From: Phycisphaerae bacterium
GTDB lineage: Bacteria; Planctomycetota; Phycisphaerae; UBA1845; UTPLA1
DNA: 12,591 bases
Direction: 5' to 3'
NCBI GenBank assembly: GCA_016935885.1
Contig: JAFGQA010000281.1
Coordinates: forward strand, 1 to 12,591
Shown: positions 1 to 12,591 of the stretch, piece after piece
How positions within the stretch are numbered: the first letter of the stretch is position 1
How the letters are laid out: each line of letters opens with the position of its first letter
The notes under the pieces: generated by a model
Databases searched by the model: none
Told to the model about the DNA's origin: nothing
The model's input: only the letters and a program-made list of their open reading frames with translations
Program-made: the position numbers and the translations under genes

Positions 1-165
1 ATCGCCCCTGGCATAGCCAAAAACGCGGTTTTTCCTTCTGTTTCGCCCCCAGCGGTTTTCGCCACTTTTTCTTTTGCGTGCTAGCAGTGCCATGCCACGA
101 AGCCGACCTGCGGCGAGCCGCCTCTCGTTCCACAAGCCCACTGGGCAGCACTGCGTGACCAGTGA
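1..165. other. Unassigned left edge, pyrimidine-rich
   Basis: I recognise no gene here. The first ~85 bases are T-rich compared with the rest of the window. They hold a 6-bp inverted repeat (AAAAAC at 19-24 and GTTTTT at 28-33, loop GCG) and two copies of GCGGTTTT at 25-32 and 52-59. The stretch ends at an in-frame TGA (163-165) that closes the recombinase frame upstream. The stem is A/T-rich and is not a convincing terminator. The 5' half of the recombinase is not visible in any frame, so it was probably deleted or heavily scrambled. Confidence 0.4.
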
Positions 166-690
166 CGGGAAGCGGGCGTATTCGACGCCCCCGACAAGAC
201 GGTGGCAATGTTCCGAGCTGATCTTGCGGACGCCGGGATCGAGGACGAGGGCGGACGGGTTGTGGACTTTCACAGCTTGCGACACACGTTCATAACCAAC
301 CTGGCGGCGGCGGGCGTCTTCCCGAAACCAGCGAGGGAGCTTGGCAGGCATTCAAGTGTCGTGTTGACGATGGACTTCTACACGCACACCGCCCGCGGCG
401 AACCGGCGATGCCGGCGGCGAACCGGCGATGGCGGTGGAGTCATTGCCGGACCTTTCATGGTCCAACCCCCAACGACGGCGGGCGACGGGCACAGAGGAC
501 ACCGAAGCACGTATACACCACAAAGAGCACCAGCTATACCCCCAAGCAGTTGGGGCGCGAAACCGTGCGAGAGGGTGCGACGCGGTGCGAGATGACGGCC
601 GCTGTAAACAGCGAGGATGGCGGCGGTAAGCTCCTTGCTGGTGCCAATGTCATCGACAGCACGCGACAGGATGTTGCCGGAAGCGAGAAC
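166..690 (+). pseudogene. Tyrosine recombinase (integrase) C-terminal remnant, frameshifted
   Basis: This is the C-terminal catalytic part of a phage/integron-type tyrosine recombinase, the enzyme that integrates and excises mobile DNA at att sites. The frame opens after a TGA at 163-165 with no proper start. It runs through FRADLADAGIE, the arginine motif HSLRHTF (~271-291), the ELGRHSS histidine motif and the DFYTHT segment holding the catalytic tyrosine (~373-390). A 20-bp tandem duplication (396-415 repeated from 416) shifts the frame just after the residues ARGEPAM. The continuation MAVESLPDLS follows in frame 3 from 429. The family-like tail (VYTTKSTSYTPKQ onward) is back in the original frame, so a second indel near 495-515 is likely. 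The N-terminal half is missing. The remnant abuts a tRNA-Arg fragment, as expected for an integrase beside its att site. The identity of the domain is firm; inactivity is inferred from the truncation and frameshifts. Confidence 0.85.
396..435 (+). repeat. 20-bp tandem duplication inside the integrase
   Basis: The 16-base string CGGCGAACCGGCGATG occurs at 396-411 and again at 416-431, a 20-bp unit copied in tandem. Because 20 is not a multiple of three it shifts the reading frame. Removing one copy joins the residues ARGEPAM directly to AVESLPDLS, restoring a continuous recombinase-like reading. This is direct evidence of a slippage-type inactivating mutation. Confidence 0.88.
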
Positions 691-739
691 GCGCCCGGAG
701 GGAGTCGAACCCCCAACCGTCGGATCCGAAGTCCGATGC
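691..739 (-). tRNA. Partial tRNA-Arg(TCG) 3' half; probable att core
   Basis: Read on the minus strand, the segment has a perfect anticodon arm: TCGGA, loop CTTCGGA, TCCGA, with anticodon TCG at complement 727-729. A 5-nt variable region follows, then a T arm with stem GGGGG/CCCTC and loop TTCGACT, and the acceptor 3' strand CGGGCGC ending at 691. A 5' acceptor strand should read GCGCCCG, but neither it nor a D arm is present upstream. Similarity to a tRNA stops at GCA before the anticodon stem. No CCA is encoded. It is therefore not a functional tRNA. A 3' tRNA fragment next to an integrase is the classic form of an attachment-site identity segment. Both the integrase frame (GGSRTPNRR) and the small downstream ORF read through it. 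Confidence 0.85.
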
Positions 740-742
740 CAT

Positions 743-937
743 GCCGACGTAACCCACGAGAAGACAAGCGGTTGCGAATCTTGCGATTCCGTCTTGCCGG
801 ATAGCTTGCCGGATTGGCTGCAAAACGCCCCGGATTTGTCGGCCGTCGTGACCGCGTGGCCGACGCCGCCCAAAGCTATCCGAACGGGCATCGTGGCGAT
901 GGTCAGGATCGTCGGCAGTGGCCAGGAAGCGACATGA
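743..937 (+). CDS. Small ORF between att core and HNH gene
   Basis: An open frame encodes a short hydrophilic segment and then a compact helical-looking module, with the residues LQNAPDLSAVVTAWPTPPKA followed by IRTGIVAMVRIVGSG. I associate this AWP-x-LPEAI-RAGI-type module with small ORFs near planctomycete integrases, but that is from memory and unverified. Its TGA (935-937) overlaps the ATG of the HNH gene (934-936) as ATGA, which suggests translational coupling. No ATG exists in frame after the tRNA fragment. The only candidate starts are an in-frame TTG (794) or a start further upstream, with the reading passing through the tRNA remnant. It could be the displaced end of a longer gene cut by recombination at the att core. 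Function unknown. Confidence 0.4.
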   Translation, partial: ADVTHEKTSGCESCDSVLPDSLPDWLQNAPDLSAVVTAWPTPPKAIRTGIVAMVRIVGSGQEAT

Positions 938-1308
938 CGCCAGACATGCCACGACATCCTTGTAACTGGCCGGACTATGATGACGTCACCGCCGAGCGAT
1001 TTCGTTCGGTCCAGCGGCAACTGGACACGGAACGGGAGGACGTGGACTGGCCGACGGCCACCCAACGTGGTTACGACAAGCGGTAGTGGGCGATCCGCCG
1101 TCGCGTCCTGGCTGAAGAGCCCTGGTGCCGGCTGTGGGTGGCCCCGGCTACCGAGGTGAACCATGTCACACCACTGAGACGCGGTGGGACCAACGCTCGC
1201 GACAACCTCCAGCCATTGTGCAAGGTCCGCCACTCACGGAAGACGGCTCGCAGGGACGGTGGATTCGGGAACATGATTCCGGATCGCGAGGGGAGGGGGG
1301 TGGGTTGA
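934..1308 (+). pseudogene. Phage-type HNH endonuclease with in-frame stop
   Basis: The frame from ATG 934 encodes an N-terminal tail, then TQRGYDKR, then an in-frame TAG at 1084-1086. It continues in the same frame with WAIRRRVLAEEPWCRLW, the HNH core TEVNHVTPLRRGGTNARDN, and LQPLCKVRHSRKT, closing at TGA 1306-1308. Phage HNH endonucleases of this kind are DNA nucleases often encoded next to packaging genes. The core keeps the first His (NH), the Asn (DNL) and the final His (RHS). The zinc-knuckle cysteines are eroded: only one of each expected CxxC pair remains (CRLW instead of CRxC, LCKVRH instead of LCxxCH). The TAG plus the missing cysteines argue for a dead gene rather than a sequencing error alone. 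The start is supported by the 4-base overlap with the upstream ORF. Confidence 0.8.
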
Positions 1309-1426
1309 ATTTCTGGATGTCTCCACTGGAAACCGTGCCGCCCCCCACGCAAGGCGTTTCGCACGTTTCGGGTAGGGGGGGGTATCGAGGATTGGGTGTC
1401 ATCAGCCAACCGTGGGGAGTGGTCGA

Positions 1427-1753
1427 ATGAGAATCGAAACAATATCGATCGGGAAGCTGGCCGCGGACCCGGCAAGTGTCCGCCAGCACTCCCCAAGGAA
1501 CCTCGACGTCATTAAGGCCAGCCTCCAGAAGTTCGGCCAGCAGAAGCCGATCGTCGTCGGTGAAAAGGGGTGTGTCGTGGCCGGCAGCGGCACATCGGAG
1601 GCGGCCAAGGCCCTTGGTTGGAAGAAGATCGACATCGTCCGAACCGGGCTGAAGGGAATAGAAGCCACGGCCCACGCGATTGCGGACAACCGATCGGCCG
1701 AGCTGGCCGAATGGGATGATGCGGCCCTGGCGACGATGTTAGCCTGTCGGTAG
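1427..1753 (+). CDS. ParB-like nuclease-fold domain protein, truncated
   Basis: A 108-residue protein. It starts at ATG 1427 with GGGGAG (1413-1418) about 8 bases upstream. It matches the ParB N-terminal fold found in phage-associated proteins: MRIETISIGKLAADP, a VRQHSPRN segment, SLQKFGQQKPIVV (residues ~31-43), the VVAGSGTSEAAKALGW box, and IADNRSAELAEWDDAAL near residues 88-104. In phages this domain commonly stands upstream of or fused to a DNA methyltransferase, or near terminase genes. Here the reading ends abruptly (ATMLACR then TAG) just after the domain, and no C-terminal partner follows. The protein is therefore likely the stump of a longer gene cut at the right end of the element. 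It follows the HNH remnant by about 120 bp of poly-G/poly-C-rich spacer. Confidence 0.78.
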   Translation: MRIETISIGKLAADPASVRQHSPRNLDVIKASLQKFGQQKPIVVGEKGCVVAGSGTSEAAKALGWKKIDIVRTGLKGIEATAHAIADNRSAELAEWDDAALATMLACR

Positions 1754-2173
1754 CCGTTCATCTGCTCGCCGCCGAAGCCGTTTTGTCCGCCGATCTACTG
1801 AGCGACGTCCTCAGCCTTCGCAGAAACGCCCGACACCAAGTTGGTCGTGCCTGGATCGACCAGCCCGGCAAGATCGAAGCCGCGAGTGCACCCGCCCACA
1901 GCGACGGACGTAAGGCCCACGGGTGTCAACGTGACGTTTCGCAAATGTGTGTACCCTCTCCTTCGAATCGTGATTGAGGGGACGGAATAAGCACCCTCGG
2001 TTTGATGCGCTGGGGGCGGAGGATCTTCCCGGTTCCGAGAGAATCCAGCGATTGACCGTGATGTTGCCACTGCTGTCGATACCCTTCGCGCAGTGACCCG
2101 ATGAACGGCGCCCGCAAGCACCATTGCACTCAAACCTGCGTAAGTACGGCCGGATGAACGGATTAGGTGCCTG

Positions 2174-2189
2174 ACGCCGGTGCCGGCGT
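2174..2189. promoter_or_regulatory. Perfect 7-bp dyad
   Basis: ACGCCGG (2174-2180), TG, CCGGCGT (2183-2189) is a perfect inverted repeat about 190 bases upstream of the first metal-cluster gene. It could be an operator or a hairpin. There is no T-run after it, so it is not an obvious terminator. Confidence 0.3.
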
Positions 2190-2253
2190 GGCGCCCGGCA
2201 ACGCGACAATCTGGCTGAAATCTGCCCCGCTTGGGAACATGTTGTTGTCCGTT

Positions 2254-2268
2254 CGCATCCAAGATGCG
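2254..2268. promoter_or_regulatory. Perfect 6-bp dyad upstream of the YHS gene
   Basis: CGCATC (2254-2259), CAA, GATGCG (2263-2268) is a perfect inverted repeat 108 bases before the ATG at 2377. Its position suits an operator or a leader hairpin for the metal cluster. No metal-regulator gene in the window points to a particular binding protein. Confidence 0.3.
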
Positions 2269-2376
2269 TGTGCGCGAGGGCATCGCCGCTGGGGTGAGCC
2301 GGACTGGCCCAGTTTTGCGATGTCGCTCGGTGCTTGGAATTGGAACATCTGTGAACCTGAGAAACTGGAGAACGCA

Positions 2377-3105
2377 ATGATGAGAACGCAAAACACCGCA
2401 GGCGTTTTCGCTTTGGCCATGCTGTGGGCTGGTACGAGCGCGGCGATGGCGCAGCACGAACTTGGCGAGCGCGGCGAACAGTCCCAGCACGCCAAGCAGG
2501 AGCTGGAGGGAGTCCAGTTGCCCCTGTGCCCCGTGACGGGTGAGCCGATCGACTTCAACGTCAAGACGATGACGGACGAGGGCCCCGTCTACTTCTGCTG
2601 CGAAGGCTGCATTAAGGAATACGAGAAGGACCCGGCAAAGTACGCCAAGAAGACCGAGACGCAGCGCGCGGCGTTGAAGAAGATGGAACGCGTGCAGGTA
2701 ACCTGCCCTGTGACCGGGAACCCGATCGACGGCAAGACGTTCGCGATGATCGACGGCCGGGGCGTGTCATTCTGCTGCGAAGACTGCGTCGGGAAGTACC
2801 AGCAGGATCCGGCGAAGTATCGCGCCAAGCTGGAGGCCAGCTACACGTATCAGGTGCGATGCCCCGTCATGGGTGGGAAGATCGACCCGAAGTCATACAC
2901 GGACCTGCCGACTGGTGAGCGCGTCTATCTCTGCTGCCCGGGATGTGAGAGCAAGCTGCTGACGGACCCGGAGAAGTACGCCCCCAGTCTCGCCAAGCAG
3001 GGCGTGAACATTGACGTGAAGAAGCTGAAGGAGGCCCTGGCGAAGAAGGACAAAGGTGACCAGACGAGCGGTGGGCATGATCCTGCGGGCCACGATCATC
3101 CGTGA
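2377..3105 (+). CDS. Exported protein with three YHS/TRASH-like metal domains
   Basis: A 242-residue protein. The start is ATG 2377, with GGAG (2367-2370) six bases upstream; the open frame extends further 5' but lacks a signal there. Residues 1-25 form a signal peptide (hydrophobic AGVFALAMLWAG, then AMAQ), placing the protein in the periplasm. Three copies of a C-P-V-[TM]-G ... C-C-x-x-C module follow: Cys 51, 74, 75, 78; Cys 110, 133, 134, 137; and Cys 162, 186, 187, 190. Each ends in a D-P-[AE]-K-Y signature. This is the YHS/TRASH-type fold associated with metal binding in copper and heavy-metal resistance. The C-terminus has a Lys-rich helix and a His-containing tail (GGHDPAGHDHP). The twelve cysteines suggest a metal scavenger or chaperone. 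It heads the cluster and is followed by another YHS protein. Ligand identity (Cu, Ag, Zn) is inferred only from context. Confidence 0.9.
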   Translation: MMRTQNTAGVFALAMLWAGTSAAMAQHELGERGEQSQHAKQELEGVQLPLCPVTGEPIDFNVKTMTDEGPVYFCCEGCIKEYEKDPAKYAKKTETQRAALKKMERVQVTCPVTGNPIDGKTFAMIDGRGVSFCCEDCVGKYQQDPAKYRAKLEASYTYQVRCPVMGGKIDPKSYTDLPTGERVYLCCPGCESKLLTDPEKYAPSLAKQGVNIDVKKLKEALAKKDKGDQTSGGHDPAGHDHP

Positions 3106-3148
3106 ATCGATGGAATGCTCGAGGCGGTCTCGTGGCTCCCGTGCCGGA

Positions 3149-3997
3149 ATGATGGGCGACACTCGTTACTTGCGGCCACGCGACCTCCGAATGCCAGTGC
3201 TTGCACTTGTGTTCGCGTTGGGATTCTCGGGGCCGCTCAGCGCGCAGGATGCGCCATCTCAACCGGCACTCAACAGATATTGCCCGGTGATGACCGAGGA
3301 AGAGGCCGACCCGAACATCACCACGGTCTACAAGGGTCGGACGATCGCGTTCTGCTGCGACAACTGCCTCGCCAAGTTCAAGGCCAACCGCGAACAGTAT
3401 TCTGATCGTCTGGCATCATTGGGAACCAGCGGTGAGCAGCCACCGGCCGGGGGAACGCTGGAAGAGCATGCCGCGGACACACACGATGGTTACGAACACG
3501 GGGCGGATGAGACTTCCACGAGCGTCGACGACGGCGACGGACAGGATCATGAGACTGGCGAAAACCGCCCGCCATTGCTCGCGCGAGTACATCCGGTCCT
3601 GGTACATTTTCCCGTGGCGGGGATTCCGTTGGCCTTGCTCGGCCTGGTGGTAGCCATCCTGAGCCGCAAGCCGGCCTTCGCGGCGGCGGACATGCCGCCG
3701 CTGTTGCTGGCCGCCTTGGCCTCCATCGCCGCCGTGATCACCGGAAACATCGCCCACGACACGCTGCGGTTTTCTTCGTCTCTGCACGACTACGTTCAGT
3801 GGCACCAGTACGCCGGAACAACGGTCATGATTCTCGTGCTCCTACTCAGCGTGTTGCGTGTCTGGCGCTGGAACCGGCTCACGGGTCGTTGGCTCTGGGG
3901 CTACGGAAGCGGTCTGCTGCTGGCATCGGTCATGGTCGGCTTGACTGGCTATCTCGGTGGCAGCCTCGTCTTCGGTCCGGATCACCTGGCGTGGTAA
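3149..3997 (+). CDS. Exported YHS-domain / DUF2231-like membrane fusion protein
   Basis: A protein of about 282 residues joining a metal-binding domain to a membrane domain. An Arg-containing N-terminus precedes a hydrophobic segment (PVLALVFALGFSGPLSAQ, residues 16-33), a signal peptide or anchor. One YHS-like module follows, RYCPVM to FCCDNC (Cys 45, 69, 70, 73). Residues 100-140 are rich in Asp, Glu and His. The C-terminal domain starts with VHPVLVHFPVAG (147-158), has about four hydrophobic helices and ends in TGYLGGSLVFG, the pattern of the DUF2231 family, whose function is not settled. Conserved His residues in such domains could bind haem or metal. Starts at 3110, 3149/3152 and 3191 are all in frame and none has a clear ribosome binding site. 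I chose 3149 because it leaves a plausible signal peptide. It lies 43 bp after the triple-YHS gene and probably shares its transcript. Confidence 0.85.
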   Translation: MMGDTRYLRPRDLRMPVLALVFALGFSGPLSAQDAPSQPALNRYCPVMTEEEADPNITTVYKGRTIAFCCDNCLAKFKANREQYSDRLASLGTSGEQPPAGGTLEEHAADTHDGYEHGADETSTSVDDGDGQDHETGENRPPLLARVHPVLVHFPVAGIPLALLGLVVAILSRKPAFAAADMPPLLLAALASIAAVITGNIAHDTLRFSSSLHDYVQWHQYAGTTVMILVLLLSVLRVWRWNRLTGRWLWGYGSGLLLASVMVGLTGYLGGSLVFGPDHLAW

Positions 3998-4036
3998 CAG
4001 GAGCTCACCTACCGCCTTTGGGGGTATGGGCGCCAC

Positions 4037-4073
4037 GCGAATCGCCCGATTTGCCGCGAAAGTGCGAATCGCC
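4037..4073. promoter_or_regulatory. Candidate operator: imperfect dyad plus direct repeat
   Basis: In the 243-bp gap before the outer-membrane gene, GCGAATCG (4037-4044) and CGATTTGC (4047-4054) form a dyad matching at 7 of 8 positions around a 2-bp centre. The 10-mer GCGAATCGCC is then repeated exactly at 4037-4046 and 4064-4073, a 27-bp spacing. Three related half-sites suggest a regulator-binding region for a separate transcript starting before the efflux genes. Which regulator would bind is unknown. Confidence 0.35.
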
Positions 4074-4158
4074 GCGGAAAGAAACCCACTCCGCTGAGCA
4101 TCCAATGCCCGACTCATGAGCACGTGGGGTTGACTGTCGCCCACGGCAGAGGAGCAAT

Positions 4159-4254
4159 ATGATGCCGTTCGGTGTTCGACGATTCTCAGGCTGGCCGGCC
4201 GGCCGGCGCGCTTGGTATGGTCGCGTGCGCGGAGACAGACATGTCACGAGCTAG
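4159..4254 (+). CDS. Putative 31-residue leader ORF overlapping the outer-membrane gene
   Basis: A strong ribosome binding site (AGAGGAG at 4148-4154) precedes a double ATG (4159 and 4162) that opens a 31-codon frame rich in Arg and Trp, ending at TAG 4252-4254. The frame differs from the outer-membrane gene (ATG 4241) and overlaps its first 14 bases. The leader contains a GC-only self-complementary run (4193-4207) made of GGCC units, able to form a hairpin that translating ribosomes would open. The arrangement fits translational coupling or leader-based control. The peptide itself has no recognisable domain. The alternative is that the binding site once served the main gene and a frameshift separated them. 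Confidence 0.4.
   Translation: MMPFGVRRFSGWPAGRRAWYGRVRGDRHVTS
4193..4207. repeat. GGCC-repeat self-complementary run in the leader
   Basis: Fifteen bases of alternating GGCC units form a strongly self-complementary GC-only stretch 34 bases before the ATG at 4241. It could fold into a stable hairpin in the mRNA and hinder access to the downstream start unless the leader is translated. Confidence 0.45.
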
Positions 4255-5758
4255 GCGAACAAGAACATCGATCGGGCGGGCATTCCGGCCGCTCCGCCGT
4301 TGGCCCTTGGGTTTGGCTACGGTCAGCATTGGCCTGAGCGGCTGTGCACTTAACCAGACGGCCCAACGAGATGTGGTGACCGCGCTGAAGCACTACGAGC
4401 AGCAGCGCACCCAGGAAGCCGGCGCGTATGCTCGGATTGGCCGAGGCGTGCCGACAACCGGGCCATCCTTGGAGACGCCGGCCAGCCCGCCGGTGGCCAG
4501 CGCTCCGAAGCCGCCTCAGACGCTGCGCGATTACATTGTCGTCGCCCTCGAACAGAACCCCGACATCAAGGCCGCGGAGGAAATCGCGCGCGCCAAAGCC
4601 GCCCGCGTGCCACAGGTGACCGCGCTACCTGATCCGATGCTGGCAACAAAGACACTGCCGGAGCCGGTCCGCACGGCGGAGGGCGACAATTACTTCGTTC
4701 TCGGCGTACAACAGAGATTCCCAGTGCCCGAGAAGCTCGACCGCGCCGGCCGCGTGGCGCTCCAGGAAGCCCGGATGGCCTTGGAAGAGCTGCAACAGAC
4801 GCGCTTGCGGGTAATCGCCGACGTGAAGCGGTCGTACTTCCGCGTGTACGTCATCGACATGACAGTCGAGATCGACGTGGCCAATCAGGACCTGTTGCGC
4901 GGGCTGATCGACGCTGTACGGGCGCAGGTGGCCGCGGGACGCCGTTCACAGGGTGATGTGCTGCGGGCCGAGGTCGAACTGTCGACGCTGGAAAGCAAGC
5001 TCATCGAGCTGCGCCAGCAGCGCAGAACGGCGGTGGCGATGCTCAACCGCGTGTTGAACCGCTCGACTACGACACCCGTTCCGAAGCCGGTCCCGTTTGA
5101 CCTCCGTGATGTAGACGTGAGGCTGGAAGAGCTGTTCGAGTCGGCGGTGGACCACAACCCCGACCTGCAACGCCTGAGAGAACAGCTTGAACGCGATCGG
5201 CAGGCCGTCAAGCTGGCGCGATTGGCGTACTGGCCGGACTTCACCCTGGGCTTCGAGTGGATGCAGATGTCTCCCCGCGACGCTTTTCAGCCGCCGCCGA
5301 ACCCGCAGACCGGCATGCCTGCGCCTGTGAATCGCATGAGCGAGAATGGCAGTGACAACTGGGCGATCACCTTCGGGTTCAACATCCCGATCTGGTTCGA
5401 GAAGATCGAAGGTGGTATTCGGGAGGCGCGCAGCCGCCTGCTCGCATCGCAGCACCAATACGTCTCGACGCAGAACCGTGTTCAGTTCCAGGTCGAAGAT
5501 GCCTTCGCCCGGGTTCGTGCGCAGCAGGAGTTGGCCGAGCTCTTCGAGAGCACCATCATCCCGCAGGCGCAGCAGACCTACGAGGTTTCCCGCGCCGCCT
5601 ACACGAGCGGGACGACGGACTTTCTTTTCGTCATCGACAACTGGCAGAAGTGGTTGACGTTCACCATTCAATACCATCGCGCGCTGGGGGAGCTGGAGCG
5701 CAGCGTGGCCGACCTCGAAGAGGTGCTCGGCCTGAGCCTTAACGAGGCGGGAGGTTGA
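4241..5758 (+). CDS. Outer-membrane efflux lipoprotein, TolC/CusC (OEP) family
   Basis: A 505-residue outer-membrane factor, the exit duct of a tripartite efflux pump. The start is ATG 4241, with GGAG (4231-4234) six bases before it. An upstream in-frame GTG (4172) has no binding site and would put the signal peptide too far inside. The Arg-rich N-region and hydrophobic core lead to a lipobox LSGC with Cys35, so the mature protein is probably lipidated. After a Pro/Ala-rich stretch, two OEP repeats of long amphipathic helices follow (~95-290 and ~305-500). They include LRDYIVVALEQNPDIK, the QGDVLRAEVELSTLESKLIE helix and a matching late helix with TSGTTDFLFVIDNW. A Met/Pro-rich loop lies between the strands of repeat two. 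The stop lies 5 bp before the adaptor gene start, so the two are tightly coupled. Substrate specificity comes from the partner pump. Confidence 0.92.
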   Translation: MSRARRTRTSIGRAFRPLRRWPLGLATVSIGLSGCALNQTAQRDVVTALKHYEQQRTQEAGAYARIGRGVPTTGPSLETPASPPVASAPKPPQTLRDYIVVALEQNPDIKAAEEIARAKAARVPQVTALPDPMLATKTLPEPVRTAEGDNYFVLGVQQRFPVPEKLDRAGRVALQEARMALEELQQTRLRVIADVKRSYFRVYVIDMTVEIDVANQDLLRGLIDAVRAQVAAGRRSQGDVLRAEVELSTLESKLIELRQQRRTAVAMLNRVLNRSTTTPVPKPVPFDLRDVDVRLEELFESAVDHNPDLQRLREQLERDRQAVKLARLAYWPDFTLGFEWMQMSPRDAFQPPPNPQTGMPAPVNRMSENGSDNWAITFGFNIPIWFEKIEGGIREARSRLLASQHQYVSTQNRVQFQVEDAFARVRAQQELAELFESTIIPQAQQTYEVSRAAYTSGTTDFLFVIDNWQKWLTFTIQYHRALGELERSVADLEEVLGLSLNEAGG

Positions 5759-5763
5759 TCGAT

Positions 5764-7305
5764 ATGAAAGCCGAACAAACCCAGCGATCCGCCCAATACC
5801 TGCGGCCGGGGCGGGCTTGGATCTGGCCGGTCTTAATCACCGTCGCGTTTCTCGCAGGTGGCGGCGGCGGCTTCTGGGCGGCGCTACGTTGGGCCGGCGC
5901 TGCTCCCGCCGGCGGGACACAAGCGGCGAGTGCCGATGACACGGAGCGGTTATACACCTGCGGAATGCACCCTAACGTCATCCAGAAAGGACCGGGTGAA
6001 TGCCCCATCTGCCACATGAAGTTGACGCCGCTCAAGCAGAGTGACGAGGAAGGTGGCACCGCGGAGGGTGGCCCGCAAGAGCGCAAGGTCCTTTACTGGC
6101 GGGCCCCGATGGATCCGAGCTACATCTCGGAGAAGCCGGGCAAGAGCCCGATGGGGATGGATCTGGTGCCGGTGTACGCTGATGAGACCCAATCCGCCAC
6201 CGGAAAGACAATCAAGATCGATCCGGTGACGATCCAGAACATGGGTATCCGGACGACGACGGTCCAGCGCGGCCCCCTCGTCAAGACCATCCGGACCGTG
6301 GGACGCGTCGATTATAACGAACAGACCGTCACGTTCATCGACACCAAGTTCGAAGGCTGGATCGAGAAGTTGCACGTCGACGAGACCGGCATCCAGGTCG
6401 ATAAGGGTGACCCCCTCTTCAAAGTGTACTCGCCCAGGCTTTACGCCGCCCAGGAGGAGTACCTGGCCGCGCTGCGCGGCGTGGAGCGTCTCGCCGGCAG
6501 CACGGTGGCCGAAATACATGAACAGGCGCAACAATTGGTGAAGGCAGCCGAGGTGCAATTGAAGTACTTCGATGTTTCCGATGAGCAAATCGACGAGCTG
6601 CGCCGTGCGAAGGAGATTACGAAGACCTTGACGATCCACTCGCCCGCCCGCGGCATCGTCACCGAGAAGATGGCACTGGAAGGCATATACGTGAAGCCCG
6701 GCATGCGGCTGTTCACGATCGCCGACCTGTCACGCGTGTGGGTTTACGTGGACATCTATGAGTATCAGTTGCCCTGGGTCCGCGTGGGCCAGGAAGCACG
6801 GATGACGCTGCCGTACGTTCCCGACCGTGAGTTCGTCGGCCACGTCGTCTACGTTTACCCCTATCTCGAAAAACAGACGCGCGTCGTGAAGGTTCGACTC
6901 GAGTTCGAGAACCCGACGCTCGAACTCAAGCCTGAGATGTACGCCAACGTGATGTTGTACGCCGACCTGGACCGCAACGCACTGCTGATCCCGCGCGAGG
7001 CGTACATAGACTCGGGAACGCGCAAGGTCGCGTTTGTCACGCGTGGCGATGGCAAGTACCAACCGCGCGACATCGAAGTCGGCGTCGAGGCCGAGGACGG
7101 GATGGTCGAGGTTCGCTACGGGCTCGACGAGGGCGACCAAGTCGTTACCAGTGGGCAGTTCATGCTCGACGCGGAGAGCAAGCTGAAGGAAGCCATTGCG
7201 AAGATGCTCAAATCCCAGAAGTCTCCAGCACCGGTATCCGAGCCGATCGGCCACGGCATGCCTGAGAAAGCCAGCAAGCCGATGCCGGCCGGACATAGTC
7301 ACTGA
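5764..7305 (+). CDS. cusB: CusB-type RND periplasmic adaptor with heavy-metal-binding domain
   Basis: A 513-residue membrane-fusion protein linking the RND pump to the outer-membrane duct. The start is ATG 5764 with GGAGG (5750-5754) nine bases upstream; the TTG at 5755 directly touches that site and is less likely. Residues 19-41 are a membrane anchor or uncleaved signal. Residues 64-90 form a heavy-metal-binding domain (YTCGMHP ... GECPICHMKL; Cys 66, 80, 83, Met 68, His 69). Residues 111-138 are the CusB-typical APMDPSY ... SPMGMDLVPVY segment, rich in Met and without cysteines. The lipoyl/barrel-sandwich half-motifs, a helical hairpin (~210-290) and the beta-barrel (KPGMRLFTIADLSRVWVYVD) follow. 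The C-terminus is Met/His-containing (GHGMPEKASKPMPAGHSH). Such proteins take Cu(I)/Ag(I) from carriers and trigger the pump. It sits between its duct and pump partners. Confidence 0.95.
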   Translation: MKAEQTQRSAQYLRPGRAWIWPVLITVAFLAGGGGGFWAALRWAGAAPAGGTQAASADDTERLYTCGMHPNVIQKGPGECPICHMKLTPLKQSDEEGGTAEGGPQERKVLYWRAPMDPSYISEKPGKSPMGMDLVPVYADETQSATGKTIKIDPVTIQNMGIRTTTVQRGPLVKTIRTVGRVDYNEQTVTFIDTKFEGWIEKLHVDETGIQVDKGDPLFKVYSPRLYAAQEEYLAALRGVERLAGSTVAEIHEQAQQLVKAAEVQLKYFDVSDEQIDELRRAKEITKTLTIHSPARGIVTEKMALEGIYVKPGMRLFTIADLSRVWVYVDIYEYQLPWVRVGQEARMTLPYVPDREFVGHVVYVYPYLEKQTRVVKVRLEFENPTLELKPEMYANVMLYADLDRNALLIPREAYIDSGTRKVAFVTRGDGKYQPRDIEVGVEAEDGMVEVRYGLDEGDQVVTSGQFMLDAESKLKEAIAKMLKSQKSPAPVSEPIGHGMPEKASKPMPAGHSH

Positions 7306-7325
7306 CTCGAACAGAGGCCTTTGCC

Positions 7326-8708
7326 ATGCGCTACGTAATTCTGAGTTTCGTGCCAGCTCTCGTCGGCGTTTCGCTGCTCGTGGGCGCAGACCGCGGTCAG
7401 ACGACGCCGTCATCCCAACCGAGCGCCTCGGGAATACCCGCCGGCGCCCACTATGCATGCCCGATGGAAGCGCATCCGGACGAGGATGATCCGGCGCGCC
7501 GGGGCGCGTATTTCTCGAGAGAAGCGGGGAAATGCCCATCGTGCGGCATGACCCTCAAGCCGCTCGATGAGTTGGCGTGGGCGCAGGCGCGTCGCGCGGC
7601 TGCCGGCGCCGAGATAGCGTACACCTGCCCGGATCACCAGCACGTGTATTCCAAGACGGAGGGCGATTGCCCGCGCTGTGGCCGAAAGCTCGAATCGTTC
7701 AAGGTGATGTACACGTGCCCCGACCCCCAACACGCCGGTCAGATCAGCACGCAGCCAGGAACGTGCCCCGAGTGCAAGCGCAAGTTAACGCCGTACCGCG
7801 GCGTCTGGTTGGCGCCGGAAATGGCTGAAGACAATGTGCCTCCGAACCCGGAAGTAGCAGAGAGTGCTGCGTACCGCTGCCCGGTGCATCCGCTGGCGCA
7901 CAGCGCCCGGGCGGGCAAGTGCCCGATTTGCGCCCACAAGCTCGAATCAGCGGGTGGCGTTTCGGAAGCCGAGCAGGACCACTCGAAGTTCATTCCGCCA
8001 GGCGCAAAACTCGTCTGTCCCATGGAGGAGTGCTGGCACTTTTCTTCAGAGCCTGGCGAGTGCCCAAAGTGCGGCATGAAGCTGAAGCCGATCGATGCCG
8101 TGGACTGGGCGAAGGCGAAACTCACACAGGCGCGCTCTGCCGATGCCGGTGCCGCGTTCGTCTGCCCAATGCACCCTGACCAGACTTCCGCGACGCGCGG
8201 GACCTGTCCCACTTGTGGCATGCAGCTTGTTGCCCGCGAGGCCGTGCCGAAACCCACCAGCGCGCCCGCCGTCATCACTGTGCAGATGGACTATCTGATG
8301 GAGCACTACCTGGAGCTCCAGAAGCGCTTTGCGTCAGATCGCACCAAGGATGTCGCGCTGCATGCGCTCGGATTGGTGTGTGCGGTCGACGAGATCCTCA
8401 AGCACGTGGACGATCCAGAAGCCAAGTTGCCGCCGGAGTTCGCAGCCGCCGCGCGGACGCTACGTGCGGCGGCCATCAAGACGAACGGCAAGGACCTCGA
8501 CGCCGACCGCGTGACCTTTGTCGAGCTCGGCGCGGCGATGCGCACGCTCGTCGAGCACGTCCGACCCGACAAAGAGCGCTTCCCCAGGATCTACGTCTTC
8601 CACTGCCCGATGACCAAGGGAGACTGGCTCCAGTCATCGGACGAGATGGCCAACCCGTTCTACGGCTTCAAGATGCTCAAGTGTGGCGAACTGCAGGCGA
8701 CGAAGTAG
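7326..8708 (+). CDS. Exported protein with six heavy-metal-binding repeats and a DUF3347-like domain
   Basis: A 460-residue protein starting at ATG 7326 with AGAGG eight bases upstream. Residues 1-21 form a signal peptide. Six HMBD-type units [YFL]-x-C-P ... C-P-x-C-x-x-x-L follow near residues 43-80, 99-125, 129-157, 183-209, 229-255 and 278-303. Units 1, 5 and 6 keep the canonical CPM and CGM methionines; units 2, 3 and 4 have CPD or CPV with CGR, CKR or CAH. From ~315 a helical domain begins with VITVQMDYLMEHYLELQKRF. It ends with FHCPMTKGDWLQ and NPFYGFKMLKCGEL (Cys 427, 453), the pattern of DUF3347 domains seen in copper-efflux proteins. It probably binds several metal ions and hands them to the CusB/CusA pump encoded on either side. 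One or two such units are usual in adaptors; six in a stand-alone protein is uncommon in my knowledge. Confidence 0.9.
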   Translation: MRYVILSFVPALVGVSLLVGADRGQTTPSSQPSASGIPAGAHYACPMEAHPDEDDPARRGAYFSREAGKCPSCGMTLKPLDELAWAQARRAAAGAEIAYTCPDHQHVYSKTEGDCPRCGRKLESFKVMYTCPDPQHAGQISTQPGTCPECKRKLTPYRGVWLAPEMAEDNVPPNPEVAESAAYRCPVHPLAHSARAGKCPICAHKLESAGGVSEAEQDHSKFIPPGAKLVCPMEECWHFSSEPGECPKCGMKLKPIDAVDWAKAKLTQARSADAGAAFVCPMHPDQTSATRGTCPTCGMQLVAREAVPKPTSAPAVITVQMDYLMEHYLELQKRFASDRTKDVALHALGLVCAVDEILKHVDDPEAKLPPEFAAAARTLRAAAIKTNGKDLDADRVTFVELGAAMRTLVEHVRPDKERFPRIYVFHCPMTKGDWLQSSDEMANPFYGFKMLKCGELQATK

Positions 8709-8739
8709 ACGTTACGGGCCGACAGAAGGATAGTGAGGC

Positions 8740-11700
8740 ATGATTGCCAAGATCATCGAAATCTGCGGTCGCAATCGGCTGCTCGTGCTGCTGCTGACCG
8801 GCTTTGTCGTTGCGGGCGGCATCTGGGCAATCTACAACATCCGGCTCGACGCGATACCCGACCTGTCCGACGTGCAGGTGATCATCTTCACCGAGTATCC
8901 GGGGCAGGCCCCGCAGGTCGTCGAGGATCAGGTCACCTACCCGCTTACGACTTCGATGCTGGCCGTGCCCTACGCAAAGGTCGTTCGGGGCTACTCCTTC
9001 TTCGGACTCTCATTCGTATACATCATCTTTGAAGACGGCACAGATATCTATTGGGCTCGTTCGCGCGTCCTGGAGTATCTCAACTATGTCTCGAACCGCC
9101 TTCCGTCGGGCGTGACGCCGCAGTTGGGACCGGACGCAACGGGTGTGGGCTGGGTCTACGAATACTCCCTTCGCAACGGGTACTACTGCCCCGAACATCC
9201 CAACGGGATGTATCACGATCCGGAAGATTCCAACGCCTGGTACGCCGCGATTGAGGACGCCCCCGAGGATGTCCGTGACCGCCTCGAGCGTGTTCGCATG
9301 TTCGAACACGGTGGCATTTGCCCCTGGGATGGCGAGACGGAGCTGAAGCTCGCCGAGTACGACCTCTCCGAGCTGCGCAGCCTTCAGGACTGGTACCTGC
9401 GCTTCGAGTTGACGGCCGTCAACGGCGTCGCCGAGGTCGCGCCGGTCGGCGGCTTCGTGCGTCAGTATCAAGTCGTCGTCGATCCGGATCGGCTGCTGGC
9501 TTACAACCTCCCGCTCAGCCAGGTCAAAATGGCCATCAAGATGTCGAACAGCGACGTTGGTGGCCGCGTGCTGGAGATGTCCGAGACCGAATACATGGTG
9601 CGCGGTCGGGGCTACCTCGCACAGCTTTCACCGGGGCAAGTTCGGGAAGCGCGGGCCGACGGCATCCCGCTGTCACGCGTTCGCGCCGCGCAGGGCATCG
9701 ACGACCTGAAGAAGATCGTCATCCGCGCGAATCCCGACGGAACTCCCGTCTACCTCCGTGACGTGGCGGATGTCCAACTCGGTCCGGAGCTGCGACGCGG
9801 CCTCGCTGAGGCCGACGGCGAAGGCGAAGTGGTTGGCGGCATCGTTGTCATGCGCTTCGGTGAAAACGCGCTCAAGGTCATCCACGACGCCAAGAAGAAG
9901 CTCGACGCGCTGCGGCCGGGTCTGCCCCCGGGCGTCGACATCATAACGGAGTACGACCGCTCCGCGCTGATTGAGCGTTCGGTGGACACCCTGAAAGAGA
10001 AGCTCATCGAGGAAATGATCGTTGTGGCGATTGTCTGCGCGATCTTCCTGCTGCACCTGCGCAGCAGCCTCGTGGCGATCTTCGTGATCCCCACCGCCGT
10101 GCTGGCCAGCCTCATCATCATGCACGCGATGGGCCTCAACGCGAACATCATGAGCCTCGGCGGAATCGCGATCGCAATCGGCGCCATGGTCGACAGCTCG
10201 ATCGTCATGGTCGAGAATGCGCACAAGCACTACGAGCGCGACAAGGGAAAGAAGCCGCACGCCGATATCATCATCGACGCCGCGAAGGAAGTCGGCCCGA
10301 CGCTCTTCTTCTCGCTGGCGATCATCACCGTCAGCTTTCTGCCGATCTTCGTGCTCGGCGAACAGAGCGGTCGGCTGTTCAAGCCGTTGGCTTTCACCAA
10401 GACTTTTGCCATGGGCGCATCGGCGCTCTTGGCCATCACGGTCGTTCCGGTTCTCATGATCTACTTCATCCGCGGCCGCATCCCCAACGAGCAGACCAAC
10501 CCGATCAGCCGCATCTTGCAGCGCATCTACGAACCGTTCTTCTGGGCGGCGATGAAGGGCAAATACGTCACACTGCTCCTTGCAGCCCTGCTGGTCGCAA
10601 GTGCGATTCTGCCGTTGCAGGAGTACATCTTCGGTCGGCAGGTGGTCGGGGAGAAACTACCCTTCCTCAAGCTCAGCAGCCAGGTCGGCAGCGAGTTCAT
10701 GCCGCCGTTGGACGAGGGCGACCTACTGTACATGCCGACCACCGACCCTGGCATCAGCATCACCAAGGCCCGCGAGTTGCTACAGCAGACGGACGCGTTG
10801 ATCGCCACGTTTCCGGAGGTCCACCACGTCTTTGGCAAGATCGGTCGAGCCGAGACGGCGACCGATCCTGCACCGCTGAGCATGATCGAAACGACCATCA
10901 TGCTGGAGCCGGATCACGAAGAATGGCGCAAGCGGCATTTCAGCCGCTGGTTCGACTTTCTACCCGGCTGGTTGAAGACGTACTCCGGCCTGACGTACTT
11001 CTGGCCCGAGGAGCGCCCGATCACGATCGACGAGCTCAGTTATGGCTGGGAAGAACCCGACGGCACGCGCGTGGACGGACTCGACGACGTCGTGGCGTTC
11101 CCCGGCCTGACCAACGCGTGGACGATGCCGATCAAGACGCGGATTGACATGTTGAGCACAGGTATCAAGACACCCGTGGGTATCAAGATTATGGGCGACG
11201 GCCTCTCGGTGTTGGGGGATCTGGCGGAGCGGATTGCCGCCGAGGTCCGCACGCTGCCGGGCACGCTGAGCGCATACCCGGAGAAAACTGTCGGCGGAAA
11301 CTATGTCGATTTCAACATCAACCGCGACGAGATTGCCCGCTATGGCCTGCGCGTGGCCGACGTGCAAGATGTCATTCTGACCGCGATGGGCGGCATGAAC
11401 ATCACGTCGACCGTTGAGGGGCTCGAACGCTACCCTGTCAACCTGCGCTACAAACGCGAACTGCGCGACAACATCCCGGCGCTCAGGCGGACGTTGGTCT
11501 CGACACCGTCCGGCGCCCAGGTACCGCTAGCGCAGCTTGCGGACATCGAAATTCACAAAGGTCCGCCGGGCATCAAGAGCGAGAGCGCCCGCAAGAACGC
11601 CTGGATCTACGTCGATCTCACCACGAGCGACGTGGGCGGCTGGGTTGCACGGGCCAAGAGCCACGTCGCACAGAGAGTGCAGATTCCCGCTGGATACAGC

Positions 11701-12297
11701 CTCGTCTGGTCCGGCCAGTACGAATATATCCAAGCCGCCAATCAGCGTCTGGCCATCGCCATCCCGGCCGTCTTCGTCCTGATCGTCTTGCTGCTGTATC
11801 TGTCACACGGGAGCTGGTTCGACACGTGTGTGGTGTTGCTGGCCGTGCCCTTCAGCCTGATCGGCGCGATCTGGTTCATGTACTTTGCCGACTACAACAT
11901 GTCGCTGGCGGTCTGGGTGGGGCTCATTGCGCTGGCCGGCCTCGACGCCGAGACCGGCATGGTGATGCTGCTCTACCTGCACAACAGTTACGATCGCCGC
12001 AAGGCCGAGGGCCGGATGAACTCGCTGGCGGACCTCAAGACGGCCATCCACGAGGGCGCGGTGCTACGCATTCGGCCCAAGACGATGACGGTCATGACGA
12101 CCATGCTCGGTCTACTCCCGATCATAATCGGGGCGGGCACCGGCTCGGACGTCATGAAGCGCATGGCCGCGCCGATGTTCGGCGGCCTGCTGACGAGCTT
12201 CGCTATGGAGTTGTTGATCTACCCCGTGATCTTCCTGGTCGCCAAGCAGTTCCAGGTCTGGCGACTGAAAGTTGCGGCACAGGCTTCCAGCCTGTGA
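8740..12297 (+). CDS. cusA: CusA-type heavy-metal efflux RND pump with family-atypical insertions
   Basis: A 1185-residue inner-membrane proton/metal antiporter; E. coli CusA is about 1047. AGAAGGA (8724-8730) lies 9 bases before ATG 8740. It shows the first helix (~14-33), IPDLSDVQV, the TM4 motif GAMVDSSIVMVENAHK (Asp485), LAGLDAETGMVML (Glu1071) and RIRPKTMT (Lys1114), matching the proton-relay positions of CusA. The metal-site methionines also align: FMPPL (Met654), PLSMIETTI (Met715) and RIDMLSTGIK (Met804). That favours Cu(I)/Ag(I) over divalent ions. Extra segments relative to CusA lie at ~145-207 (with C150, H153, H159, H190, C194), ~297-319, ~625-645 and ~731-780. The 3' end is formed by a REP-like palindrome whose AGCCTGTG arm supplies the TGA. 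It is the last large gene of the cluster. Confidence 0.96.
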   Translation: MIAKIIEICGRNRLLVLLLTGFVVAGGIWAIYNIRLDAIPDLSDVQVIIFTEYPGQAPQVVEDQVTYPLTTSMLAVPYAKVVRGYSFFGLSFVYIIFEDGTDIYWARSRVLEYLNYVSNRLPSGVTPQLGPDATGVGWVYEYSLRNGYYCPEHPNGMYHDPEDSNAWYAAIEDAPEDVRDRLERVRMFEHGGICPWDGETELKLAEYDLSELRSLQDWYLRFELTAVNGVAEVAPVGGFVRQYQVVVDPDRLLAYNLPLSQVKMAIKMSNSDVGGRVLEMSETEYMVRGRGYLAQLSPGQVREARADGIPLSRVRAAQGIDDLKKIVIRANPDGTPVYLRDVADVQLGPELRRGLAEADGEGEVVGGIVVMRFGENALKVIHDAKKKLDALRPGLPPGVDIITEYDRSALIERSVDTLKEKLIEEMIVVAIVCAIFLLHLRSSLVAIFVIPTAVLASLIIMHAMGLNANIMSLGGIAIAIGAMVDSSIVMVENAHKHYERDKGKKPHADIIIDAAKEVGPTLFFSLAIITVSFLPIFVLGEQSGRLFKPLAFTKTFAMGASALLAITVVPVLMIYFIRGRIPNEQTNPISRILQRIYEPFFWAAMKGKYVTLLLAALLVASAILPLQEYIFGRQVVGEKLPFLKLSSQVGSEFMPPLDEGDLLYMPTTDPGISITKARELLQQTDALIATFPEVHHVFGKIGRAETATDPAPLSMIETTIMLEPDHEEWRKRHFSRWFDFLPGWLKTYSGLTYFWPEERPITIDELSYGWEEPDGTRVDGLDDVVAFPGLTNAWTMPIKTRIDMLSTGIKTPVGIKIMGDGLSVLGDLAERIAAEVRTLPGTLSAYPEKTVGGNYVDFNINRDEIARYGLRVADVQDVILTAMGGMNITSTVEGLERYPVNLRYKRELRDNIPALRRTLVSTPSGAQVPLAQLADIEIHKGPPGIKSESARKNAWIYVDLTTSDVGGWVARAKSHVAQRVQIPAGYSLVWSGQYEYIQAANQRLAIAIPAVFVLIVLLLYLSHGSWFDTCVVLLAVPFSLIGAIWFMYFADYNMSLAVWVGLIALAGLDAETGMVMLLYLHNSYDRRKAEGRMNSLADLKTAIHEGAVLRIRPKTMTVMTTMLGLLPIIIGAGTGSDVMKRMAAPMFGGLLTSFAMELLIYPVIFLVAKQFQVWRLKVAAQASSL
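12278..12296. repeat. REP-like palindrome overlapping the cusA stop codon
   Basis: CACAGGCT (12278-12285), TCC, AGCCTGTG (12289-12296) is a perfect 8-bp inverted repeat with a 3-base loop. The TGA of the pump gene (12295-12297) begins in its last bases, so the C-terminal residues QASSL are encoded by the repeat. Another frame of the same bases reads GTGFQPV, a string I recall as recurring in planctomycete annotations, consistent with an interspersed repeat. It lies 32 bases before the small ORF and would form a hairpin in the transcript. Confidence 0.75.
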
Positions 12298-12328
12298 AAC
12301 CTACGCTCACTCTGACCGGAGGAACGCA

Positions 12329-12415
12329 ATGATCCTGTCTAACCTGCTGTACATCTTCCTGGCTCAGTTGTTAACGTTCGTCTTTGATCTCATCCGTTCC
12401 GTGATCGGAGTCTGA
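12329..12415 (+). CDS. Candidate 28-residue hydrophobic membrane peptide
   Basis: A small ORF starts at ATG 12329, five bases after a strong GGAGGA binding site (12318-12323), and ends at TGA 12413-12415. The peptide begins MILSNLLYIFLAQLLTFVF and ends DLIRSVIGV: a single hydrophobic helix of about 19 residues followed by one Asp and one Arg. It lies 31 bp downstream of the RND pump in the same direction. Single-helix peptides associated with transport proteins are known (AcrZ with the RND pump AcrB, KdpF with KdpABC), so an accessory subunit of this pump is a reasonable guess. The sequence shows only a well-placed binding site, a clean ORF and a membrane-like composition. I recognise no family. 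Confidence 0.6.
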   Translation: MILSNLLYIFLAQLLTFVFDLIRSVIGV

Positions 12416-12591
12416 AGGAGGCACACTGGTCCGGGGGGATCCGCTGTGCAGGATCTTCAGGTCAGGGGAGGTCCACCATCTAGAGCAGTCTAAGCTTGAG
12501 ATTTCCTATGCCGCCGACGCCGATCCGAACCGCGACCGTGAGGGAGCGGTCAGCCTTCACCCTTGAAGAACGTCGGCAGACTGGTCATCCC
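12416..12591. other. Right edge, no convincing gene
   Basis: AAGGAGG (12415-12421) directly after the small ORF is a strong binding-site-like sequence, but no ATG, GTG or TTG follows at a usable distance; the nearest possibility is CTG at 12426. An ATG at 12508 opens a frame to the window end, but most of its visible codons come from the hairpin repeat at 12529-12550. No T-run terminator is visible after the cluster. Confidence 0.4.
12529..12550 (+). repeat. REP-like hairpin with tandem G-A mismatches and a GNRA-type loop
   Basis: The 22 bases fold as ACCGC paired with GCGGT (5 bp), then a GA/GA internal pair able to form tandem sheared G-A pairs, then CC/GG, closed by GTGA (GUGA in RNA, a GNRA tetraloop). 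The core GACCGTGAGGGAGCGG resembles an interspersed sequence I recall from planctomycete genomes, though I cannot verify this here. It could be a dispersed repeat, a transcript-end structure or a structured RNA element. Confidence 0.5.

Follow-up and report, generated by a model that had tools for sequence, protein, structure and literature searches.

The Escherichia coli Cu/Ag pump CusCFBA is the closest described counterpart of the locus we analyze here, which lies on a 12,591-nucleotide stretch of DNA from a Phycisphaerae bacterium (assembly GCA_016935885.1, contig JAFGQA010000281.1, positions 1 to 12,591). We call this whole stretch the window. Like CusCFBA, the locus encodes an outer channel, a CusB-like adaptor, and a CusA pump of the resistance–nodulation–division (RND) type, and it preserves the CusA Met triad and the CusB Met motif. 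Unlike CusCFBA, the locus lacks CusF, and it adds a protein with six HMBD domains, two YHS proteins, a Cys/His insertion in CusA, and a micropeptide. Small membrane proteins linked to RND pumps are known, one being AcrZ, which has 49 amino acids. AcrZ is reported to modulate AcrB in the membrane (PMC7267776), and WatS, of ~50 amino acids, is proposed to modulate WatABO (PMC10355033). The window peptide differs from both: it has only 28 amino acids, it lies in or beside the pump operon, its pump is a metal pump, and it matches no Pfam family. For the HMBD domains, the point of comparison is the HMBD of LpCopA (PDB 8ovl), which shares their fold and which is reported to bind Ag+ via sulfur ligands, with Cu+ binding likewise suggested (PMC11970713). 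In that account, LpCopA is a P-type ATPase carrying one cytosolic terminal HMBD, whereas the window encodes six in series on a presumed periplasmic protein.

The genes of the locus form one run on the + strand and encode, in order, a triple-YHS protein (YHS3), a YHS–DUF2231 protein, TolC, CusB, the six-HMBD protein (HMBD6), CusA, and the micropeptide, specified by a 28-codon open reading frame. A preliminary description, made from the letters of the window alone, had named all of these parts; each was found, and its coordinates proved correct. Our interpretation, to which we assign a probability of roughly two in three, is that the locus is an enlarged planctomycete (Phycisphaerae-related) Cu(I)/Ag(I) export operon, combining the pump with HMBD6 as a replacement for CusF, with YHS proteins as metal binders, and with a CusA-bound peptide.

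The preliminary description had grouped the accessory genes with cusCBA in a single system, and a neighborhood survey of relatives bears out this grouping. Our sample comprised 397 genomes from the class to which G001 belongs, a related genome listed under the name Phycisphaerae bacterium. These are mostly metagenome-assembled genomes, many of them akin, so that counts are not independent, and several loci lie near contig ends; thresholds and motif patterns are our own. HMBD6 occurs at 19 sites in 18 of the 397 genomes. CusA adjoins it at all 19, CusB at 18 of the 18 sites where the contig reaches, and TolC is near at 16 of 18 assessable sites (none in L127 and L129). Given adjacency to CusA at every site, we reject chance co-occurrence of HMBD6 with the pump. 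Furthermore, at 9 of the 19 sites, CusB and HMBD6 are specified by one open frame of 919–1054 codons; this count leaves out L114, a fusion-like arrangement in which the CusB frame is split. Recurrence of much of this set among the relatives suggests that the enlarged form of the pump is real.

The YHS components recur as well. YHS3 (2377..3105; YHS 43.8 bits, TRASH 33 bits) is a triple-YHS/TRASH-type protein with a signal-peptide-like start and a His-rich tail, its three YHS motifs having been counted with our own pattern. The YHS–DUF2231 membrane protein (3149..3997, start uncertain) scores 57.7 bits for DUF2231, and its YHS part falls slightly below the Pfam cut-off (28.2 versus 30.3 bits). 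Of 16 assessable HMBD6 sites, 11 have YHS3 nearby (11 of all 19). A YHS–DUF2231 homolog is near 6 of the 16, adjoining YHS3 in L113, L119, and L120 and lying farther upstream, with weaker scores, in L123–L125. The YHS3 protein has 466 relatives; at E ≤ 1e-25 it is present in 58 of the 397 genomes overall versus 15 of the 18 HMBD6 genomes. Among 20 YHS3 sites examined in genomes lacking HMBD6, 13 lie beside a cus-type pump, which there belongs to a more distant CusA clade. We reject chance as the source of this linkage: the binomial P is 1e-15 at a 3% background and 4e-9 at 10%, backgrounds that we assumed after counting 1–18 matches in each genome, where many genes contributed two, and these values serve as a guide only, the genomes being related. 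Judged by spread across genomes, YHS3 together with a pump would be the wider module, to which HMBD6 would have been added later in one clade. Side observations concern further proteins near these operons. A protein with a YHS domain at its C-terminal end, assigned by Pfam on the L001 and L125 copies and representing a further YHS component, is encoded at L001 4731–5447, L123 1732–2421, L124 18930–19598, and L125 1943–2611. An HMA plus MauE membrane protein, assigned by Pfam on the L125 copy, lies behind or near cusA in L123 (14549–15325) and L125 (14436–15242), and also in L205, L208, and L211.

HMBD6 (7326..8708) scores 131.5 bits against Pfam PF19335 (cut-off 23.6) over six HMBD stretches, and ends in a DUF3347-like four-helix part. 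It has 178 relatives at E ≤ 0.001; among the matches listed, 13 are named with an organism, 10 of them planctomycete-type. Across 48 aligned relatives, most HMBD Cys and His residues, like the C-terminal HCPM...NPxYG...CGE motif, are strictly or almost strictly conserved, and the number of HMBD units varies. DUF3347 itself (PF11827), at E ≤ 0.01, matches 15 of these 48 and leaves the window protein unmatched; a literature search on DUF3347 returned nothing related by title. The predicted HMBD6 structure (mean predicted local distance difference test score, pLDDT, 87.1; predicted template-modeling score 0.47) aligns by Foldseek with the LpCopA HMBD 8ovl over 29 columns at a root-mean-square deviation of 1.0 and 45% identity, with a probability of 1.00 but an E of 0.34, the domain being very short. 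The "HMBD" of PMC9433437 is a CopZ-like domain with no bearing on HMBD6. We also set aside a plasmid origin for HMBD6: 12 plasmid records matched, all at below 60% identity, and none covers 80%.

The preliminary description noted that CusF is missing, and the wider search agrees: CusF (PF11604) matches no protein of the window and turned up in none of the 19 relatives searched (the 18 HMBD6 genomes plus G753). The same search was positive in 2 of 14 named control genomes, E. coli and Caulobacter. Given the absence of CusF from these 19 genomes and the LpCopA-like HMBD model, we read HMBD6 as a candidate CusF replacement.

The identity of the pumped metal is suggested by the pump and its adaptor. 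CusA (8740..12297) scores 1077.9 bits against NCBIfam TIGR00914 (CusA/CzcA; cut-off 701.45), a family that spans both Cu/Ag and divalent metal pumps and does not discriminate between them. Window residues M665, M715, and M804 align with three periplasmic Met residues of E. coli CusA, M573, M623, and M672, which we take to be metal ligands; Met occupies these positions in 97, 96, and 96 of 97 alignment rows, the remainder being gaps. The adaptor (5764..7305) combines a Cys-type HMBD with the Met motif of CusB, and the N-terminal Met residues of E. coli CusB likewise align with it. Pfam places two HMBD stretches in window CusB; the best, residues 64–89, has the Cys residues, and the second is taken to be the Met motif at approximately residues 110–140 that aligns with E. 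coli CusB. The Cys-type HMBD motif is present in 27 of 69 full-length CusBs examined, and this CusB feature is thus not special. Because the Met ligands of both CusA and CusB align with those of the E. coli pump, homology points to Cu(I)/Ag(I).

The Cys/His insertion of CusA, to which the preliminary description had also drawn attention, lies in the periplasmic portion of the pump (9172..9354; C150, H153, H190, C194), and we find that it tracks HMBD6. Window CusA has 82 residues at the insertion site versus 24–26 in most sampled CusAs. All 20 HMBD-linked CusAs carry both insertion Cys residues, compared with 6 of the 76 others in the alignment, of which 67 have a loop of ≤32 amino acids and 9 a long one, the 6 being among those 9. 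The insertion (residues 141–200) is predicted at a pLDDT of ~83, the mean for the whole CusA model being 66.7. Overlapping the end of cusA is a palindrome, CACAGGCTTCCAGCCTGTG (12278–12296), which contains the last CusA codons and resembles a dispersed repeat; L215, the closest relative, keeps it with one mismatch.

Behind cusA lies the micropeptide gene (12329..12415), preceded by a Shine-Dalgarno-like GGAGG (12318..12322). The preliminary description had entertained it as a possible extra component, and it is a genuine one: the micropeptide is a real conserved gene, with coding-type substitutions, always at a cus locus. Specifically, a scan revealed clear homologs downstream of cusA in seven HMBD loci, and a profile built from these seven plus the window copy found the micropeptide in 13 of the 397 genomes at E < 1e-3, one copy each, with the next match at E 0.03. 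Matches at E 0.03–0.1 in 7 genomes were dropped as noise (13–18 bits versus at least 25 for those kept). All 13 copies are at cus loci, and 10 of the 13 genomes are among the 18 with HMBD6. The gene lies directly behind cusA in seven genomes (G001, G121, G133, G269, G308, G337, and G394) and behind cusA and an HMA–MauE gene in G058 and G195. Three genomes (G051, G184, and G260) carry it divergently, upstream of tolC, and G388 has it within what is left of a decayed cusA. The G269 pump is accompanied by the micropeptide and by no HMBD protein. Seven copies were found from outside the profile, all at cus loci: six from the class (G051, G184, G260, G269, G337, and G388) and one from the family (G753).

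The substitution pattern is that of a coding sequence. G753, the closest relative, shares 92% DNA identity with the window over 6351–12298, and its micropeptide differs from that of the window by five amino-acid and seven silent codon changes. Position-3 substitutions predominate in 7 of 7 micropeptide pairs compared, frame 0 scores 3.01 and the other two frames 0.77 and 0.32 over the 15 pairs that six sequences give, and Shine-Dalgarno-like sequences precede micropeptide copies. Its sequence suggests one hydrophobic helix, with a best 19-residue Kyte–Doolittle mean of 2.02 and an Ala-Gln pair that is invariant in 13 of 13 aligned copies. No Pfam family matches any of the 13 at E ≤ 1, and the peptide is not filed as AcrZ, for which Pfam presumably holds a model. 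Searches of 20 YHS3-only loci gave no match, and a phylum sample of 392 genomes gave only G001 plus one weak match (E 0.005, inside a 932-amino-acid frame). In the literature, no heavy-metal RND micropeptide appeared by title or start of abstract among the matches listed. By analogy, we propose that the micropeptide is an AcrZ-like partner of CusA. Separately, four loci have other sequences around the peptide or in its place: L113 (14642–14866) and L119 (4799–5590) have a small lipoprotein-like open reading frame after cusA, where the micropeptide would be; L158, from G388, has the decayed cusA remnant around the peptide and then integrase-like sequence (3800–5000); and in L121, from G051, a type I phosphodiesterase gene (14057–15538) lies between tolC and the divergent micropeptide.

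These parts could operate as follows. TolC (4241..5758, start uncertain; OEP 164.6 bits on the longer frame 4172–5758), CusB, and CusA would form a tripartite pump of the usual kind, in which alignment shows the Met ligands of the E. coli Cu/Ag pump to be kept. YHS3 and YHS–DUF2231, linked to the pump by position, may serve at an earlier step as additional metal binders, either in the periplasm or anchored to the membrane. HMBD6, with six sites and its DUF3347-like part, would collect Cu(I)/Ag(I) and deliver it to the adaptor, to which it is fused in some genomes. From HMBD6, metal would reach the Met site of CusB as well as CusA, the latter perhaps via the co-occurring CusA insertion, and would be expelled through TolC. 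The 28-residue peptide, conserved and exclusively linked to cus loci, may be a transmembrane helix that packs on CusA to tune or stabilize it, as AcrZ does AcrB. The metal relay between the parts, the metal specificity, and the binding capacity are what we infer from homology. A bolder version would be a periplasmic copper relay peculiar to one planctomycete lineage, in which the heavy-metal RND pump has a micropeptide as a dedicated subunit, a six-site Cu(I)/Ag(I) carrier bound to the adaptor has replaced CusF, and CusA has gained a matching docking mini-domain. We hold this version tentatively and would narrowly bet against it.

Several observations weigh against the enlarged-operon interpretation. 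On the pump side, CusB falls below the NCBIfam NF007303 CusB cut-off (220.9 versus 390) and passes the generic RND_mfp model TIGR01730 (138.8 versus 94.9), and we thus file the adaptor as CusB-like only. A related CusA clade (L157, L205, and L208) keeps the long insertion with the Cys residues replaced, so pumps bearing the insertion can dispense with them, and, the CusA model being poor, the insertion can be placed relative to the Met triad only provisionally. No copy of the micropeptide turned up in 8 of the 18 HMBD6 genomes; its divergent placement in three genomes means that its tie to cusA transcription is not a strict one; and among 80 CusA loci, scanned where the CusA frame exceeded 700 bits, only L001 has it downstream. 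Finally, 7 of the 20 YHS3-only sites showed no pump; of these, L201 is truncated where its contig ends, right after a DUF2231 match, and the contigs of L193 and L194 stop on one side of the site.

These pumpless sites, together with the wider reach of YHS3 (58 genomes versus 18 for HMBD6), would suit an arrangement in which the YHS and HMBD proteins are a periplasmic sink that stores Cu or Zn independently, co-regulated with the pump and not feeding it. The recurrent CusB–HMBD6 open frame, however, ties HMBD6 to the adaptor, as does a gene annotated as an RND adaptor on Pontibacter plasmid NZ_CP021236.1, which contains a region similar to HMBD6 residues 287–457 (27.4% identity over 37% of the query, the six-HMBD array being unmatched) and whose neighbors include TolC and RND pump genes as well as one named DUF3347. 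Given, in addition, that the CusA insertion tracks HMBD6, we regard a sink as unlikely. Another reading takes the accessory Cys/His sites to be zinc-type and the pump to export divalent metals (Zn/Cd/Co). HMBD and YHS/TRASH folds do resemble zinc ribbons and Zn sites, a further point against Cu(I)/Ag(I), and weak matches to Pfam zinc-ribbon families occur. Yet three CusA Met residues and the CusB Met ligands align with those of a Cu/Ag pump. TIGR00914, which covers both types, is not decisive. We consider divalent-metal export very improbable. As for the micropeptide, its pronounced hydrophobicity and lack of a Pfam match could mark a small hydrophobic toxin or a chance open reading frame with no role in the pump; a single significant copy per genome, invariably at the cus locus, with coding-type substitutions and upstream Shine-Dalgarno-like sequences, makes this improbable. 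We thus retain the enlarged Cu(I)/Ag(I) export operon as our interpretation.

The surroundings of the operon tell us about its control and history. We recognized no regulator in the 2.4 kb upstream or 0.2 kb downstream that the window shows, in keeping with the preliminary description, which had called the cluster free of a local regulator. Among related sites, this is no general trait of the system: homologs of the extracytoplasmic function (ECF) sigma factor of L120 (>100 bits) lie near the module at 7 of 19 HMBD6 sites (L115, L116, L118, L119, L120, L126, and L129) and 10 of 20 YHS3-only sites (L195, L196, L198, L199, L202, L206, L207, L209, L210, and L211). Anti-sigma homologs accompany 7 and 8 of these, respectively, that is, a zf-HC2 type at 15 of 17 ECF sigma loci. 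In L118, the sigma gene is downstream of cusA. No ECF sigma homolog was found at 12 of the 19 HMBD6 sites, in a search limited to homologs of the L120 sigma and anti-sigma, with other regulator types not sought; L215 is cut upstream inside CusB and is uninformative. The ECF sigma factor is a possible metal-responsive regulator of the module; a literature search on ECF sigma factors with planctomycete heavy-metal efflux returned no papers. The mobile-element remnants that had been noted beside the cluster are present at the left end of the window, as an integrase fragment (202–804, 27.9 bits) and a ParB_N stretch below the cut-off (1412–1753). They are not seen within the recurrent module of relatives, and they look incidental. 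G388, like the window, has a cus locus touching a recombinase. Rfam at the gathering threshold and a tRNA scan found nothing in the window, and promoter and terminator scans gave no excess over shuffles.

The micropeptide is so short that usual gene callers would probably miss its gene. Because the parts recur, the claims of a CusF-free pump and of a micropeptide partner can be tested in related genomes. If our interpretation is correct, CusF is dispensable for a Cus pump that has metal collection built onto or into its adaptor, and a micropeptide partner is something that metal RND pumps can share with drug RND pumps.

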